This document shows positions 21,495 through 42,234 of a DNA stretch of 64,000 nt, one piece after another. The stretch comes from Spelaeicoccus albus (GTDB taxonomy: Bacteria > Actinomycetota > Actinomycetes > Actinomycetales > Brevibacteriaceae). Numbering within the stretch: position 1 is the first letter of the stretch; each line of letters opens with the position of its first letter. The position numbers were made by a program, and so were the translations under genes. The stretch spans positions 1,550,001 through 1,614,000 of the forward strand of contig NZ_JACBZP010000001.1 in the NCBI RefSeq assembly GCF_013409065.1, written 5' to 3'. The notes under the pieces are model-generated. The model was not told the origin of the DNA. It did no database searches and worked only from the letters and a program-made list of their open reading frames with translations.

Positions 21495-21523
21495 CAAGTA
21501 GTTTCCGATCTGGAAAGTACTTG
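21495..21523. promoter_or_regulatory. Large inverted repeat, probable operator of the membrane protein/regulator module
   Basis: CAAGTAGTTTCC (21495-21506) and GGAAAGTACTTG (21512-21523) are inverted copies matching at 11 of 12 positions with a five-base spacer (GATCT). The element lies between the divergent protease gene (start 21454) and the membrane protein gene (start 21557). The small winged-helix protein encoded at 22024 is the natural candidate to bind it. Confidence 0.6.
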
Positions 21524-21556: not shown

Positions 21557-22027
21557 ATGAACGAAGAACAAGCTGCGGCACGCAACTCCGTCGATCAGGG
21601 CGGCGACGAGACACCGGTGGATCCTCAGGCGGCGCTCGGAATCGTGAACAGCGTGCAAGAGCGCAGTCGACGCGCAACGAGTTGGCTCGGAACCTTTTTT
21701 CTGCTTTACGGCATCGGAATCGCCCTGGTGGGGATCTCGATCGGCGCCTCGGGCGGCCGATTCACCACGGCCGCCATGGTCTTGTGGGTTGTCTTTGTCG
21801 TCGTCACGGTGATGTGGGCGAATTTGAAGCGGGCGGTCATCAAGGGCATGGGATCGCTGATGGCAATCTGGGCGATTTGCTTTTGCGCGACCTGGGTGCC
21901 GACCGTCACGATCGGGGCCACCGTGTTTCCGCACCGGGTGAGCTGGTGGATCTGGTGTGGCATCGGAACGATCATCGTGCATCTGGTGCTGGCCGTCTGG
22001 GTGTGGCGGAAGTCGGCACGGCGATGA
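21557..22027 (+). CDS. Small membrane protein of a membrane protein/winged-helix module
   Basis: A 156-residue protein of unknown function. A hydrophilic N-terminus (about 45 residues, ending 'VQERSRRATSWLG') precedes four hydrophobic segments. The frame is open from 21521, but ATG 21557 starts at the acidic leader and follows the AT-rich promoter-like stretch. Its stop overlaps the start of the regulator gene (ATGA). The layout repeats at 39296-40921, where membrane proteins also precede a regulator of the same kind. Transmembrane sensing or export coupled to the regulator is conjecture. Confidence 0.7.
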   Translation: MNEEQAAARNSVDQGGDETPVDPQAALGIVNSVQERSRRATSWLGTFFLLYGIGIALVGISIGASGGRFTTAAMVLWVVFVVVTVMWANLKRAVIKGMGSLMAIWAICFCATWVPTVTIGATVFPHRVSWWIWCGIGTIIVHLVLAVWVWRKSARR

Positions 22028-22326
22028 CGGCGACCCATCCTCGGCACGGTCTCGACTCGGCGCTGCAAGCTCCCGTACGGTTGTCGATCGTGGCAATGCT
22101 CGCCGGTATGGACAAGGCGGAATTCTCGCTCGTCCGCGACACCATCGAGGTGTCCGACTCCGTGCTGTCCAAGCAGTCTCAAAATCTCGAGGACGCCGGG
22201 TATGTCGCGATTACCAAGGGATTCGTCGGTAAACGACCCCGTACCTGGTTTTCCTTGACGGACGACGGGCGAGTGGCGTTTGAGCGGCATATCGCCGCAT
22301 TGCGACAGATCGCCGGGGCCGACTGA
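22024..22326 (+). CDS. Small winged-helix transcriptional regulator
   Basis: A 100-residue protein that is essentially one winged-helix domain (MarR/ArsR-like, HTH_34 type). 'LQAPVRLSIVAMLAG' is helix 1, 'VLSKQSQNLEDAGYV' the recognition helix, and 'KRPRTWFSLTDDGRVAF' the wing. It has no ligand domain, so any sensing must be by the coupled membrane protein or through dimer contacts. It starts by ATGA overlap with the membrane protein gene. A paralogue of the same size and plan is at 40598-40921. Confidence 0.85.
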   Translation: MTATHPRHGLDSALQAPVRLSIVAMLAGMDKAEFSLVRDTIEVSDSVLSKQSQNLEDAGYVAITKGFVGKRPRTWFSLTDDGRVAFERHIAALRQIAGAD

Positions 22327-38010: not shown

Positions 38011-38523
38011 TTAGACGCCCGTTTTGCCGTCGATGCGTTCACGCAACAGGTCGGCATGGCCGTTGTGCCGGGCGTATTCCTCGAGCATGTGGGCGTAAAT
38101 CCAGCGGAGGTTGACCTCTTGGCCCATCAAGGTGCCCGTGTCGGTCAGCGAGTGCGCCGCGCAAACCTGGCGGGCGCTCTCCACCTCGGCCCGCCACGTG
38201 TCGAGCGCGCCGCCCAGGGTAGCGTCGGCGGCCAGGTCGAACCCGCCGTCCGAACTGTTCGGGTCGGCCTGCGGATCGTAAATCGGCGGAGCGGATGCAC
38301 CGGCGAAGACCCGCTGAAACCAGTTCCGCTCGACTTCGGCCAGGTGTTGGACCAGGCCGGTCAGAGTGAAGCCGGACGGCGGCACCGCGACCGTCGCGGC
38401 CTGCTCGTCGTCCAAGCCTTCGCACTTGATGGCGAGAGTGGCCCGGTGAAAATCGAGCCAACCTTCAAGCGTTATGCGTTCGTCGGCGTTCAGCGGGGGC
38501 ATGGGGCGTTCAATGGCTGTCAT
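38011..38523 (-). CDS. DinB family protein (DUF664)
   Basis: A 170-residue four-helix-bundle protein of the DinB/DUF664 type. Metal-ligand histidines appear in '[17 protein letters not shown]' (about residue 60) and '[20 protein letters not shown]' (about residues 145-164), the classic DinB pattern. Some family members are mycothiol- or bacillithiol-dependent S-transferases, fitting an actinobacterium, but activity is not demonstrable here. It is divergent from the GNAT gene at 38595 with 71 bases between. Confidence 0.9.
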
Positions 38524-38594
38524 ACGTCCATCATGGCAAGCCGGTCCGACATTAATCGGATGAAGTGCCGGTTGCCGGATGAAACACTGAAGCC

Positions 38595-39203
38595 ATGACC
38601 GAACGAGACAGACCTCGGCAGCCTGTGCGCGGAATGGATCTTGCCGATCTCGACTGGCCGGTGAGTACCGACCGGTTGACCATCAGGCCGGCCACCGCGT
38701 CCGATGCGGATGCGACGTGGGGGTACCACCGGCTCGAAGCCGTCTGCCGCTGGATGACGTATTTATCCTCGAGTGCGGACGAACACCGAGTGCGCTTCAC
38801 CGATCCGCTCCGGCTTGGCCGAACCCTCGTCATCGAGCATGGCGGAACGGTGATCGGCGACGGCAAGATCGATATTGAGGATCCTTGGGCGCAAAACGAG
38901 GTCGTCGAGCAAGCGCGTCGGACTCAGGCCGAACTCGGCTGGTGTCTGGATCCGGGCTATACCGGCCGGGGCTACGCGACCGAAGCAGTTGCCGAAATGA
39001 TCCGCATTTGTTTCGAGGAGCTCGGTTTGCGCCGGGTGACGGCCCTGTGTTTTGCCGATAACGAGCCCTCGTGGCGGCTGATGGAACGGGTCGGAATGCG
39101 GCGCGAAGCGCACTACGTGGCCGATTCGCTACACCGGAGCAAAGGATGGGTCGACGGATTCGAGTACGCGCTGCTCGCCGGCGAATGGCGTGCCCGGCGC
39201 TGA
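38595..39203 (+). CDS. GNAT family N-acetyltransferase (RimJ/RimL type), paralogue
   Basis: A 202-residue acetyltransferase, paralogous to that at 330-905. Both share '[10 protein letters not shown]' (acetyl-CoA loop, about residues 118-127 here) and '[17 protein letters not shown]' (about 155-171). This copy has a longer N-terminus ('[20 protein letters not shown]'). The ATG is about 70 bases from the divergent dinB-like gene. The substrate is unknown; paralogy suggests a similar target in both. Confidence 0.88.
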
Positions 39204-39242
39204 AACCCGCAGAAACTGGTAGTCATTCGCTTGCCCATTTTA

Positions 39243-39283
39243 AGTTTGTGGTGCAAACTTAACTCAAGTTTGCACCACAAACT
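39243..39283. promoter_or_regulatory. 18-bp perfect inverted repeat, probable double operator
   Basis: AGTTTGTGGTGCAAACTT (39243-39260) is repeated perfectly inverted at 39266-39283, with five bases between. Each arm is itself nearly symmetric (AGTTTG-TGGTG-CAAACT), giving four half-sites. It ends 12 bases before the TTG start of the membrane protein gene, so a bound protein would block transcription or translation start. The winged-helix protein at 40598 is the likely ligand. Confidence 0.75.
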
Positions 39284-39295
39284 ACGGGGGAAGCC

Positions 39296-39949
39296 TTGAA
39301 CAAGTCAGCAGCTGCCATGGCAAACATTCAGCCGTCCGCTTCGATGACGGCCCGTCCGGAGCAGACCCGCCAAGATGCGCGGCCGGCGAGCCGACCCGAT
39401 CTCCTCGTCGGCAAGGCACACGGCAAAGACGTCGCCGCCAACGGCATGGTGATGGGAATCGCCGCAATCGCGTGGTTCGGCTGGGCACACCAAGCCGAAA
39501 TGGCCGCATTGCAGGTCCCGCTCGCCTTCGGCATGGCTGCCGGCCTGGCGCTCGGAATCGTGTGCTTCACGGCCCGCCGCCGATTGGGCGGACAAAGCGT
39601 CCACGAAACGAACACCAAACGCGCAAACACCGTGTATTACGCCGCAGTGGGGTTCGAGGTCGTCTTCGCCTTCGGCGGCGCAATCACGCTCGGCAAGCTC
39701 GAACATCCCGAATACATCATCGCCTGGATCATGGCGGTCATGGGTATCCACTTCCTGCCCCTGGCACGCCTCTACCGGATCCGGGAGCTCACGTTGACCG
39801 GCGCCCTGTGCATCGTCGCCGGTGCGGTCGGCGCGATCACCGGCCTCACCGGCTTTCTGGCACCGGCGGTCATTGCCGGAGTCGGCGGAGGAGCGGTCCT
39901 CTTGGCCACCGGCATCGTCTGCGCCGCGCGCCTGCGCCGGGCTTGGTGA
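39296..39949 (+). CDS. Membrane protein of unknown function (membrane/winged-helix module 2)
   Basis: A 217-residue protein with a hydrophilic N-terminus of about 45 residues and roughly six hydrophobic segments. The start is TTG with GGGGGAAG four bases upstream. Segments such as 'WIMAVMGIHFLPLARLYRI' and 'LTGALCIVAGAVGAITGLTG' are seen, but I recognise no transporter or enzyme signature. Its stop overlaps the GTG start of the next membrane protein gene. A large perfect inverted repeat lies right upstream. Confidence 0.75.
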   Translation: MNKSAAAMANIQPSASMTARPEQTRQDARPASRPDLLVGKAHGKDVAANGMVMGIAAIAWFGWAHQAEMAALQVPLAFGMAAGLALGIVCFTARRRLGGQSVHETNTKRANTVYYAAVGFEVVFAFGGAITLGKLEHPEYIIAWIMAVMGIHFLPLARLYRIRELTLTGALCIVAGAVGAITGLTGFLAPAVIAGVGGGAVLLATGIVCAARLRRAW

Positions 39950-40608
39950 ACGAGATGACAGGCAACGGAGAATCGCCGAGCGGCCGGACGTCGTCCGAGG
40001 CGTCTTTCGATGCGGCGAGCGCCGCTCGCCTGGTGGAGTCGGCCCAGAAAACCATGGGGCAGGCGCTCGACGTCCGGCCCGCAGCGCAATATTTGGCCTG
40101 GGGGTTGGCCTGGCTGATCGGGCTTGGAACGATGTGGCTGACGGTTGTCGCCCGTGACCCCTATGTCGGCCCGGCGGGCTGGACGACGGGATTCCTGATC
40201 GTCCTGCTTGTCGCAGCACTCGCAGTGACAAGCGTGTCGACAGCACGCGCTACCGAGGGTCTCGGCGGCGTCAACGCCTATCGCGGCCGCGTGTTCGGCG
40301 CGGCCTGGGGCGTTGGATTCGCCGGTTTGTGGCTCGGCATCTTCGCAGTGGGCATGCACGGCGCGCCGCCGTTGACGATGGGGCTTTTGACCGGTGCCGG
40401 ATCGATCGGGTTGACCGGGCTCATCTATTTGCTCGGATCGGCGCTCTGGGTCGACAAGTTGATGACGTGCCTTGGCGGCTGGCTTGTCGCAGTCGCCGTT
40501 GGCGGCGCGTTCGCCGGACCGGTCTGGCTGCTCGCTCTCGGTGCGTTCGCCGGCGGAGGCGGATTCATCGTTGCGGCCGCGCTGGCATGGAGACGTCGTG
40601 GCCGCTGA
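39946..40608 (+). CDS. Membrane protein of unknown function (membrane/winged-helix module 2)
   Basis: A 220-residue protein: a polar N-terminus ('ASFDAASAARLVESAQKTMG' about residues 21-40) and then about six hydrophobic segments. GTG 39946 overlaps the preceding stop; ATG 39955 is an alternative. The N-terminal 'VESAQKT' stretch before the first segment resembles the 'VNSVQERSRRA' stretch of the membrane protein at 21557, which supports a shared origin of the two modules. Its end overlaps the regulator gene by 11 bases. Confidence 0.75.
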   Translation: MNEMTGNGESPSGRTSSEASFDAASAARLVESAQKTMGQALDVRPAAQYLAWGLAWLIGLGTMWLTVVARDPYVGPAGWTTGFLIVLLVAALAVTSVSTARATEGLGGVNAYRGRVFGAAWGVGFAGLWLGIFAVGMHGAPPLTMGLLTGAGSIGLTGLIYLLGSALWVDKLMTCLGGWLVAVAVGGAFAGPVWLLALGAFAGGGGFIVAAALAWRRRGR

Positions 40609-40921
40609 TTCCGAAGTCCCGGCCGCCGGTGCCGACGCCCCGGCCGCCTTGGACCCCGTCATTCACGCGCCGGCCCGTTTACGCATCATGGCGAGCTTGG
40701 CCGGTCTGGCCGACGGCGACACCATCAAGTTCCCGCGCCTGCAAAAGGTGCTGGGCATGACCGGCGGAAACTTGATCACACACATCCGCAAACTCGAAGG
40801 CGCCGGATACGTTCGATCCGAGAAGGCCGGACGCACGACAACTTTGTCGCTCACCGACTCGGGAAGAGCGGCGTTCCACGCATACCGGCAATCCTTACGG
40901 GACCTGCTGGGCAGCGACTAA
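40598..40921 (+). CDS. Small winged-helix transcriptional regulator, paralogue
   Basis: A 107-residue single winged-helix domain. 'IHAPARLRIMASLAGLADGD' is helix 1, 'MTGGNLITHIRKLEGAGYVR' the recognition helix, and 'GRTTTLSLTDSGRAAF' the wing. GTG 40598 has GGAGA five bases upstream; the frame opens earlier at 40472 inside the preceding gene. It matches the 22024 protein in size, fold and position after membrane protein genes. It probably binds the inverted repeat at 39243-39283. Confidence 0.83.
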   Translation: MAADSEVPAAGADAPAALDPVIHAPARLRIMASLAGLADGDTIKFPRLQKVLGMTGGNLITHIRKLEGAGYVRSEKAGRTTTLSLTDSGRAAFHAYRQSLRDLLGSD

Positions 40922-40946
40922 TTGCCTTGCTCGTGTCTCTCCTCCC

Positions 40947-40968
40947 CGCCGAGTGGTGACGAATGGCT
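40947..40968. repeat. Dispersed repeat, locus 2 (single half-copy)
   Basis: CGCCGAGTGGTGACGAATGG, then CT, matches the first 22 bases of the locus 1 left arm with a single difference (A for G at position 13). Like the other two loci it lies between convergent genes (stops at 40921 and 40982). No partner arm is visible here. Confidence 0.75.
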
Positions 40969-40981
40969 CTCTCCCTGCGGG

Positions 40982-42234
40982 TCAATTGCCCAGCCAAGCC
41001 AGCGCTGCCACCGTCAACGCGGCAGTTCCGGTGTCGAGCGTCGGCTGAATGACAGGGGCGAACTGAGCCGAGTGGTTGACGGGGATGTCTTGGGAAATCC
41101 TTCCGGACTTTTCGGCTTGCTCGTACTTTTCCGGATCCGTGCCGCCGACGCCCCAGTACGTGTATGGAATGCCAAGGGCGTTCGGGACGTCGCTGAAGTC
41201 CTCGCTCGCCGTCTGCCGGGGGAGTGTCGATGCCCTGTCGCCGAAATAGTCCGAAAACGCTGCAGCCACCCGGTCGGTGACGCCGGAGTCATTGTCGGTG
41301 ACGGGGAACTGGCCGAACAGCTCGAACTCGGGTTCCTTCGGAGATCCGGACGCCTGGCATTCGGCCGTCACGATGCGCTTGATGGCAGTCAAAATCGTCT
41401 CGCGTGACGCCGGGCTGTAATCCCGGATGTTCAACTCGATCACGGCATGGTCGGCAATGACGTTGCTCTTGGTGCCGGCGCGCACGCTGCCGACCGTGAC
41501 GACAGCGAACTCACCTGGAGGAAGCTCGCGGGAGACGATCATCTGCAACCGGATCACGATCATCGACGCCAACACGACAGGGTCGACGGCGGCCTGCGGC
41601 ATCGAGCCGTGCGCGCCGCGCCCGTACACGGTGATCTTCATGCTGTCGGCCGACGACAAGAACGGACCGGGCCGGGTGCCCAGCCGTCCGGACGGGAACG
41701 CGAGCACGTGCTGGGCCAGCGCGGCGTCCGGCGTTCCCGTCGCGTGGGCGAGGCCGTCGTCTACCATCGCCTGAGCGCCGTCGCCAAGCTCCTCGGCGGG
41801 CTGGAACAGCGCGACGACCGTGCCCGACCAGCTGTCCCGGCTCTCGGCCAGTAGCTGCGCCGCCCCGAGAAGACTCGTGACGTGGACGTCGTGACCGCAC
41901 GCATGCATCACCGGCACGTCGTTACCGCCGGCATCTTTTGCGGTCGCCGTGCTGGCATAGGGCAGACCCGTCGCCTCGGCAACCGGCAGCGCGTCCATGT
42001 CCGCCCGCATCAGCACGCGCGGACCCTCGCCGTTCGCCAGGACGCCCCGACCACGCCGGTGCCTCCGATCCCGCTCGTCACCTCAAAGCCGAAATCGCTC
42101 AAGCGTTTCCGAACGATCTCGGCAGTCCGGTGCTCTTGATGGGACAACTCGGGATGGGAATGGAGATCCTTGTAGAGGTCTTCTTGCCAGCCGCGTATCG
42201 AATCCAACTTTGCCAGTACATCGTGAGTCGTCAT
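40982..42234 (-). pseudogene. M20 family amidohydrolase, frameshifted
   Basis: Two frames together make one M20D peptidase (IAA-amino acid hydrolase/hippurate hydrolase type). The N-terminal part (42234-42010) has 'DLHSHPELSHQEHRTAEIV'. The main part (from 42016) has 'LMRADMDALPVAEATGLPYA', 'VMHACGHDVHVTSLLGAAQ', 'QPAEELGDGAQAM' and the terminal His in 'HSAQFAP'. The break lies at a C4 run (42045-42048, G4 on the coding strand), where one extra G would restore the frame. The RBS AGGAGG and ATG 42234 are intact, so the lesion is recent or a base-calling error. Confidence 0.85.

Follow-up and report, generated by a model that had tools for sequence, protein, structure and literature searches.

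The locus raises the question of what a pair of exact palindromes does in front of an operon that encodes two membrane proteins and a small winged-helix protein. It lies in a stretch of 64,000 nucleotides (the window), which spans positions 1550001-1614000 of a 4.03-Mb genome present as one contig and has a G+C content of 61 to 67% across 4-kb blocks. An interpretation made earlier from the letters alone (the sequence-only reading) had described an 18-bp perfect inverted repeat with four half-sites in 41 bases. We confirm this feature at 39243-39283: the arms, 39243-39260 and 39266-39283, are 18 nt each, 100% complementary and separated by a gap of 5 nt. The perfect repeat with its 5-base loop arises because two 17-bp palindromes have mutually complementary cores, TGGTG and CACCA. 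The overlapping operon proposed downstream, with two membrane proteins and a 107-residue winged-helix protein, is likewise present as three overlapping ORFs, the last matching HTH_34. The next long ORF after the regulator, 40982-42016, lies on the opposite strand, so the operon probably ends at the regulator. Upstream, the ORF ending at 39203 is presumably GNAT-like. The features are as follows.

39243-39259, + strand: operator I, AGTTTGTGGTGCAAACT, an exact AGTTTG-N5-CAAACT of 17 bp, conserved upstream of orthologues
39267-39283, + strand: operator II, AGTTTGCACCACAAACT, an exact AGTTTG-N5-CAAACT with its centre 24 bp from that of operator I
39296-39949, + strand: 217-aa membrane protein with a TTG start codon, resembling DUF7010 at a score below cut-off; the gene is not a conserved part of the module
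39946-40608, + strand: 220-aa membrane protein, conserved partner of the regulator, with helix 23-40 and six long helices read as transmembrane
40598-40921, + strand: 107-aa HTH_34 winged-helix regulator, recognition helix GGNLITHIRKLE

Allowing up to 2 mismatches, AGTTTG-N5-CAAACT has no window matches beyond operators I and II. Shuffled versions of the window gave a mean of 0.51 matches at this threshold and reached two matches in 10 of 100 shuffles; the real copies are both exact. In the 4.03-Mb genome, exact matches are again confined to operators I and II, and 2-mismatch versions occur at 37 other places, versus 28 for the backwards control.

The regulator is a member of HTH_34 (PF13601), scoring 52.8 bits against the Pfam cut-off of 27 (E 4.5e-14). 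A second HTH_34 regulator (92.9 bits, E 1.4e-26) is encoded near 22 kb of the window. The two are 37% identical over 94 columns, which upholds the paralogy suggested for them by the sequence-only reading. Their best solved sequence relative is 1ub9 (PH1061; E 7.1e-6 and 2.4e-5), which we take to be from Pyrococcus horikoshii; its entry name is hypothetical protein, and the likeness is one of sequence. The 22-kb module consists of three features.

21496-21522, + strand: operator, AAGTAGTTTCCGATCTGGAAAGTACTT, sole genome match at up to 3 mismatches
21557-22027, + strand: 156-aa membrane protein with a helix from residue 23 and about four transmembrane helices, in a low-confidence model (pLDDT 74.1, pTM 0.44)
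22024-22326, + strand: 100-aa HTH_34 regulator, recognition helix SDSVLSKQSQNLE

Relatives of 40598-40921 are present in 56 of 149 related genomes (E ≤1e-6), a count that takes in the window's genome. Apart from the regulator itself, the best-scoring 22 matches are 54-63% identical and come from several families of the order. A scan of public genomes yielded at least 64 loci, and 30 loci of related genomes were fetched from a longer list of matches. We compared 93 regulator loci beyond the window's, of which 92 could be oriented, one (L042) giving no tblastn match; several genomes are probably represented twice among the loci, through two collections or searches (for example L021/L085, L023/L082, L024/L089, L041/L141 and L043/L130), so that locus counts are not independent.

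The palindrome is a recurrent feature of these loci. TTTG-N5-CAAA is found within 1700 bases upstream of the regulator in 64 of 92 sampled loci, at a distance of about 590-870 bases from the regulator match. L068 departs from this, its operator being ~1.4 kb away because an extra gene intervenes. For 57 of these 64 loci, phmmer identifies the neighbouring membrane ORF as a relative of 39946-40608 (E <1e-5). A partner relative was not recovered in the other seven (L017, L046, L053, L055, L075, L092, L097), for some of which the script had picked the wrong frame. Counted over all loci, the membrane gene next to the regulator is a relative of 39946-40608 in 64 cases (E 3e-31 to 3e-6); 57 of these have the operator and 7 lack it. 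The sequence-only reading had proposed a search for more regulator-plus-membrane operons, and these occur in many bacteria. In 90 of 92 loci, all but L046 and L091, the end of a hydrophobic ORF is no more than 60 bases from the regulator match.

We also scored a fixed region 250-1000 bases upstream of regulators of both module types. TTTG-N5-CAAA occurs there in 63 of 123 loci; the controls gave 1 locus for the downstream region, 0 for the reversed pattern, 1 for exchanged half-sites, 0 for a spacing of 4 and 1 for a spacing of 6. In most columns the aligned sites follow R-S-TTTG-Y-R-N-Y-R-CAAA-S-Y, and a further back-to-back half-site flanks many of them on each side. Paired full sites 21-29 bp apart were seen in 10 of the 123 loci. 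While the inverted repeat of the sequence-only reading is real, the conserved operator unit is the 17-bp palindrome, and most loci carry a single one. Like the window, L078 and L080 have two operators whose cores are complementary (CAGTT/AACTG), located ~740-760 bases ahead of the regulator; the complementarity may reflect chance or inverted duplication. Another arrangement occurs at G198:C1:3770012-3770362 (L170, L200), where the operator lies ~100 bases before the HTH_34 gene, too close for an intervening membrane gene, and the module order is therefore different.

The two operators in the window differ, which had been taken to suggest specific, separate circuits. This agrees with our data: each site is unique in the genome, and the operator type tracks the recognition helix. 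The counts come from loci related by descent and are not independent events. Regulators with a GNLxxH helix account for 73 of 123 loci, with TTTG-N5-CAAA in 63 and the TTTCC type in 0. Regulators with [ST][DK]SxLS[KR], the 22-kb paralogue included, account for 46, with the TTTCC type in 43 and TTTG-N5-CAAA in 0. The TTTCC type is defined as exact TTTCC-N5-GGAAA or as ACTTTCC-N5-GGAAAGT with up to 2 mismatches in 14. The remaining 4 regulators have another helix and neither operator. The expected operator is absent from the fixed region in 10 of the 73 GNLxxH loci (9 if L068 is counted) and in 3 of the 46 loci of the other type. The window itself holds one module of each helix/operator type.

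An even sample of the phylum gave 16 loci, in 12 of which a helix pattern was found. Eight of these 12 readable loci have a site within 1300 bases, and all eight fit the helix-operator rule. No site was detected within 1300 bases in L158, L161 and L168; L172 is the window's own regulator, with its site just beyond the 1300-base stretch. Single loci from Chloroflexota (L097) and KSB1 (L092) fit the rule as well. In the regulator tree, from which four loci were left out by name, the five TTTCC-type rows used form one group (support 99/92). The 22-kb operator type was also observed upstream of relatives in Sphingomonas (L094, L096, L100), a Caulobacteraceae genome (L098) and Microbispora (L099, L102-L104).

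The operator is rare away from its module. The refined consensus RSTTTGYRNYRCAAASY has 21 occurrences across 19 genomes, which were chosen for carrying the operator at the module; every occurrence lies at the module, against 0 for the backwards control. Among the 149 relatives, the consensus is found in 20 genomes and the control in 8; the site of G012 lies away from its HTH_34 gene. In the phylum sample the consensus is present in 9 of 149 genomes versus 4 for the control. Seven of the nine have an HTH_34 gene within ~1 kb downstream of the site, and such a gene (E ≤1e-8) is present in 5 of the other 140 genomes (Fisher p 1e-7; 9e-7 without the window's genome). Near the sites of the other two consensus genomes, G166 and G199, no GNLxxH-type helix was seen. 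The window's own genome has the consensus at operators I and II only, at the module's own promoter and nowhere else. This uniqueness and the conservation of the palindromes strongly support autorepression, and the regulator appears to repress its own operon only.

The position of the operators is compatible with such a role. Two candidate promoter elements can be placed relative to the 17-mer.

39231-39236, + strand: candidate -35, TTGCCC, its TTG exactly 12 bases ahead of the operator 17-mer
39254-39259, + strand: candidate -10, the right half-site of operator I, 17 bp after the candidate -35

Across the 63 operator loci, 16 have TTG[AC] at -12 relative to the 17-mer, 12 have it at -29 or -30, and 35 at neither of these two fixed offsets; -36 or -37 contributes a further 10 counts. 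Combined with a 17- or 18-base spacer, TTG[AC] at -12 or at -29/-30 would put a CAAACT-like half-site at the -10 position, so that a bound dimer would block RNA polymerase. The operon promoter (TTGCCC / CAAACT) is weak by consensus. The predicted transcription start falls at about 39266, bordering operator II, which would thus be next to or over it. In 11 of the 16 loci with the -12 offset, the start codon chosen by the script follows the 17-mer by 7 bases, which suggests a leaderless mRNA at these loci.

The inverted repeat could also act as RNA, as the hairpin of an attenuator or riboregulator in the 5' leader, and the 117-nt region does fold with the full 18-bp stem (-48.5 kcal/mol, z -5.5). 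However, at most orthologous loci there is just one 17-bp palindrome and no long stem, and the candidate -10 lies inside the left arm, so that the main transcript would be without this arm. No Rfam match at gathering scores was obtained in 38500-41500. The repeat is not followed by a T run either, and the type of site correlates with the regulator's recognition helix. We rejected an RNA element as the main reading and regard it as very unlikely. As a separate observation, if transcription of the upstream gene continued through 39243-39283, the RNA would bear a very stable 18-bp hairpin there, without a T run.

The membrane protein 39946-40608 is the conserved companion of the regulator. Its model (pLDDT 89.5, pTM 0.80) has a helix at residues 23-40 followed by six long helices. 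Direct BLASTP detected no similarity between this partner and the 22-kb membrane protein. A profile comparison of 38 partner proteins with 11 proteins of the 22-kb type gave an hhalign probability of 92.7 over 109 columns, starting from the N-terminal segment. This segment is kept in both module types, while the membrane parts diverge. The similar N-terminal stretches noted in the sequence-only reading can thus be retained for 39946-40608; for the first membrane protein, 39296-39949, no relation was detected.

In the trees, the window's partner groups with paired-operator loci (support 100/99), as does its regulator (86/52). Long branches are flagged for the window's proteins in both trees, the paired-operator locus L018 falls elsewhere in both, L075 forms a very long, ill-placed row, and 12 identifiers were left out of the partner tree by name.

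Structure comparison of the partner was not specific. A PDB fold search returned no match with E below 0.5, and a second comparison reached Z of at most 8.9 (TMEM45A, SatP, designed bundles), in a range below about Z 13 where matches between helical bundles are not telling. In the absence of a functional fold match, the fold does not distinguish a sensor from a transporter, and we draw no function from it. The window's membrane proteins match no Pfam family above cut-off and no NCBIfam model at E ≤0.1, and family scans of the 38 and 11 membrane relatives gave scattered weak matches only. 

The operon's first gene behaves differently. No homology was detected between 39296-39949 and the partner family, and DUF7010 was rejected as an assignment (16.3 bits versus a cut-off of 27). 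Of 149 genomes, 45 contain relatives of the protein, the window's included. We fetched 20 loci and read the neighbours in 9; in the flanks of the 19 non-window loci, tblastn with both regulators (E 0.01) found no HTH_34 gene. The module unit of the sequence-only reading is accordingly narrowed to 39946-40608 with the regulator, and 39296-39949 seems, from its distribution, to be a lineage-specific later addition to the operon. In L068, three operator copies and the partner gene flank a gene at about 1573-2252, which we take to encode an ICMT-like membrane methyltransferase. It occupies the place of the window's 217-aa gene, and the first operon position therefore seems to take variable cargo.

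On balance, we favor a dedicated, self-contained circuit in which an HTH_34 autorepressor shares its operon with a membrane partner that probably serves as a sensor by way of the shared N-terminal helix. The genes, the operators with their conservation and genomic uniqueness, the agreement of operator with recognition helix and the homology of the partners are observed; dimer binding, repression, cooperativity, sensing and a contact between helix and repressor are inferred. The HTH_34 protein would bind as dimers to both AGTTTG-N5-CAAACT palindromes, which overlap the promoter and the presumed start, and would repress its own operon and no other; the two sites, 24 bp apart, could make repression cooperative. 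The partner would respond either to the condition of the membrane or to some membrane-soluble compound, and the short helix before its first transmembrane span would sequester or release the repressor, inducing the operon when needed. The first membrane protein would be extra cargo under operator control. That the partner gates repression via its N-terminal helix is most likely given the genetic linkage, the shared segment, the small regulator and the analogy to HAAS-PadR pairs discussed below. Envelope stress as the signal is a guess by analogy.

It is also conceivable that the regulator is an ordinary ligand-responsive repressor in the style of MarR or PadR, with the membrane proteins as its output, for example as a ligand exporter or permease, and without any signaling to the repressor. 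Both HTH_34 proteins do give weak matches to MarR, ArsR or PadR models, the L068 gene, as read from its sequence, could place an enzyme at the first operon position, and the SatP/AceTr succinate-acetate permease is among the top structural matches of the six-helix partner (Z 8.6, rmsd 5.1, 156 aligned). This last match is tied with TMEM45A and designed bundles, however, and falls below the level at which helical bundles are telling. The regulator, at ~100 residues, is barely more than a winged helix and has no separate ligand domain, and the N-terminal segment of the partner is kept despite the diverged membrane parts. We therefore regard a ligand-responsive repressor as rather unlikely. A small, apparently autoregulated DNA-binding protein adjoining a membrane protein would also recall a toxin-antitoxin-like or phage-defence pair. 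Yet the DNA-binding gene is the last one, the partner is large and has six helices, and several families of the order contain regulators 54-63% identical to this one, which makes such a pair extremely improbable.

In outline, an autoregulated small winged-helix protein with a membrane partner is of a known kind. Dyads of HAAS proteins and PadR-like wHTH regulators were proposed as an alternative to two-component systems and include uncharacterised 6TM and 4TM types (PMC11237479). They have in common with the window pair a stand-alone small winged-helix regulator and a multi-TM protein with an N-terminal helical segment, through which the HAAS-PadR dyads are proposed to signal. As described there, HAAS comprises three helices with a GxP motif, whereas the model of the window partner has one N-terminal helix. 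HAAS-type families (DUF1700, DUF1129, DUF1048) gave no match in the 38 and 11 membrane proteins at E ≤1 with HMMER filters on. For PadR, no match is listed for 40598-40921, and the paralogue scores 21.1 bits, below the cut-off of 27. As the defining features are not found, we consider the module to work like a HAAS-PadR dyad without being a member.

A second comparison is provided by Listeria LltR, where three operon genes are up 107- to 151-fold in the lltR mutant (PMC6624303). LltR with lmo0600/lmo0601 is, like the window regulator, a small repressor of its own operon encoding trans-membrane proteins, repression being inferred for the window. As described there, LltR belongs to the PadR family and has DUF1700 and DUF4097 partners, whereas the window regulator is HTH_34; by gene numbering its regulator gene comes first, whereas in the window it comes last. 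No account of the HTH_34 pairing, its operators or the match between helix and operator was present among the matches listed in the open-access literature.

It is possible, though we would stop short of calling it probable, that HTH_34 regulators with helix-TM partners constitute a distinct, widespread class of signaling pairs, each of one membrane protein and one repressor, that resemble HAAS-PadR dyads by analogy only. The repressor would be titrated by the partner's N-terminal helix, and a short recognition-helix code of GNLxxH/TTTG-N5-CAAA and SDSxLSK/TTTCC-N5-GGAAA would insulate paralogous circuits within one genome. If it is true that the membrane protein signals to the repressor, the module would represent a minimal alternative to two-component systems. 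In many bacteria, an unannotated membrane family gains a defined regulator, operator and promoter layout. The module is also a clean single-target system, where protein-DNA specificity is testable by swaps of a few residues.

Two departures from the common pattern are possible natural changes of specificity, as far as their sequences indicate. GNLGAH-type regulators at L024, L032, L034, L089 and L090 occur without TTTG-N5-CAAA, and L036, which has a GNLSVH helix, carries the variant palindrome ACTTTATGATATAAAGT ~772 bases before its regulator.
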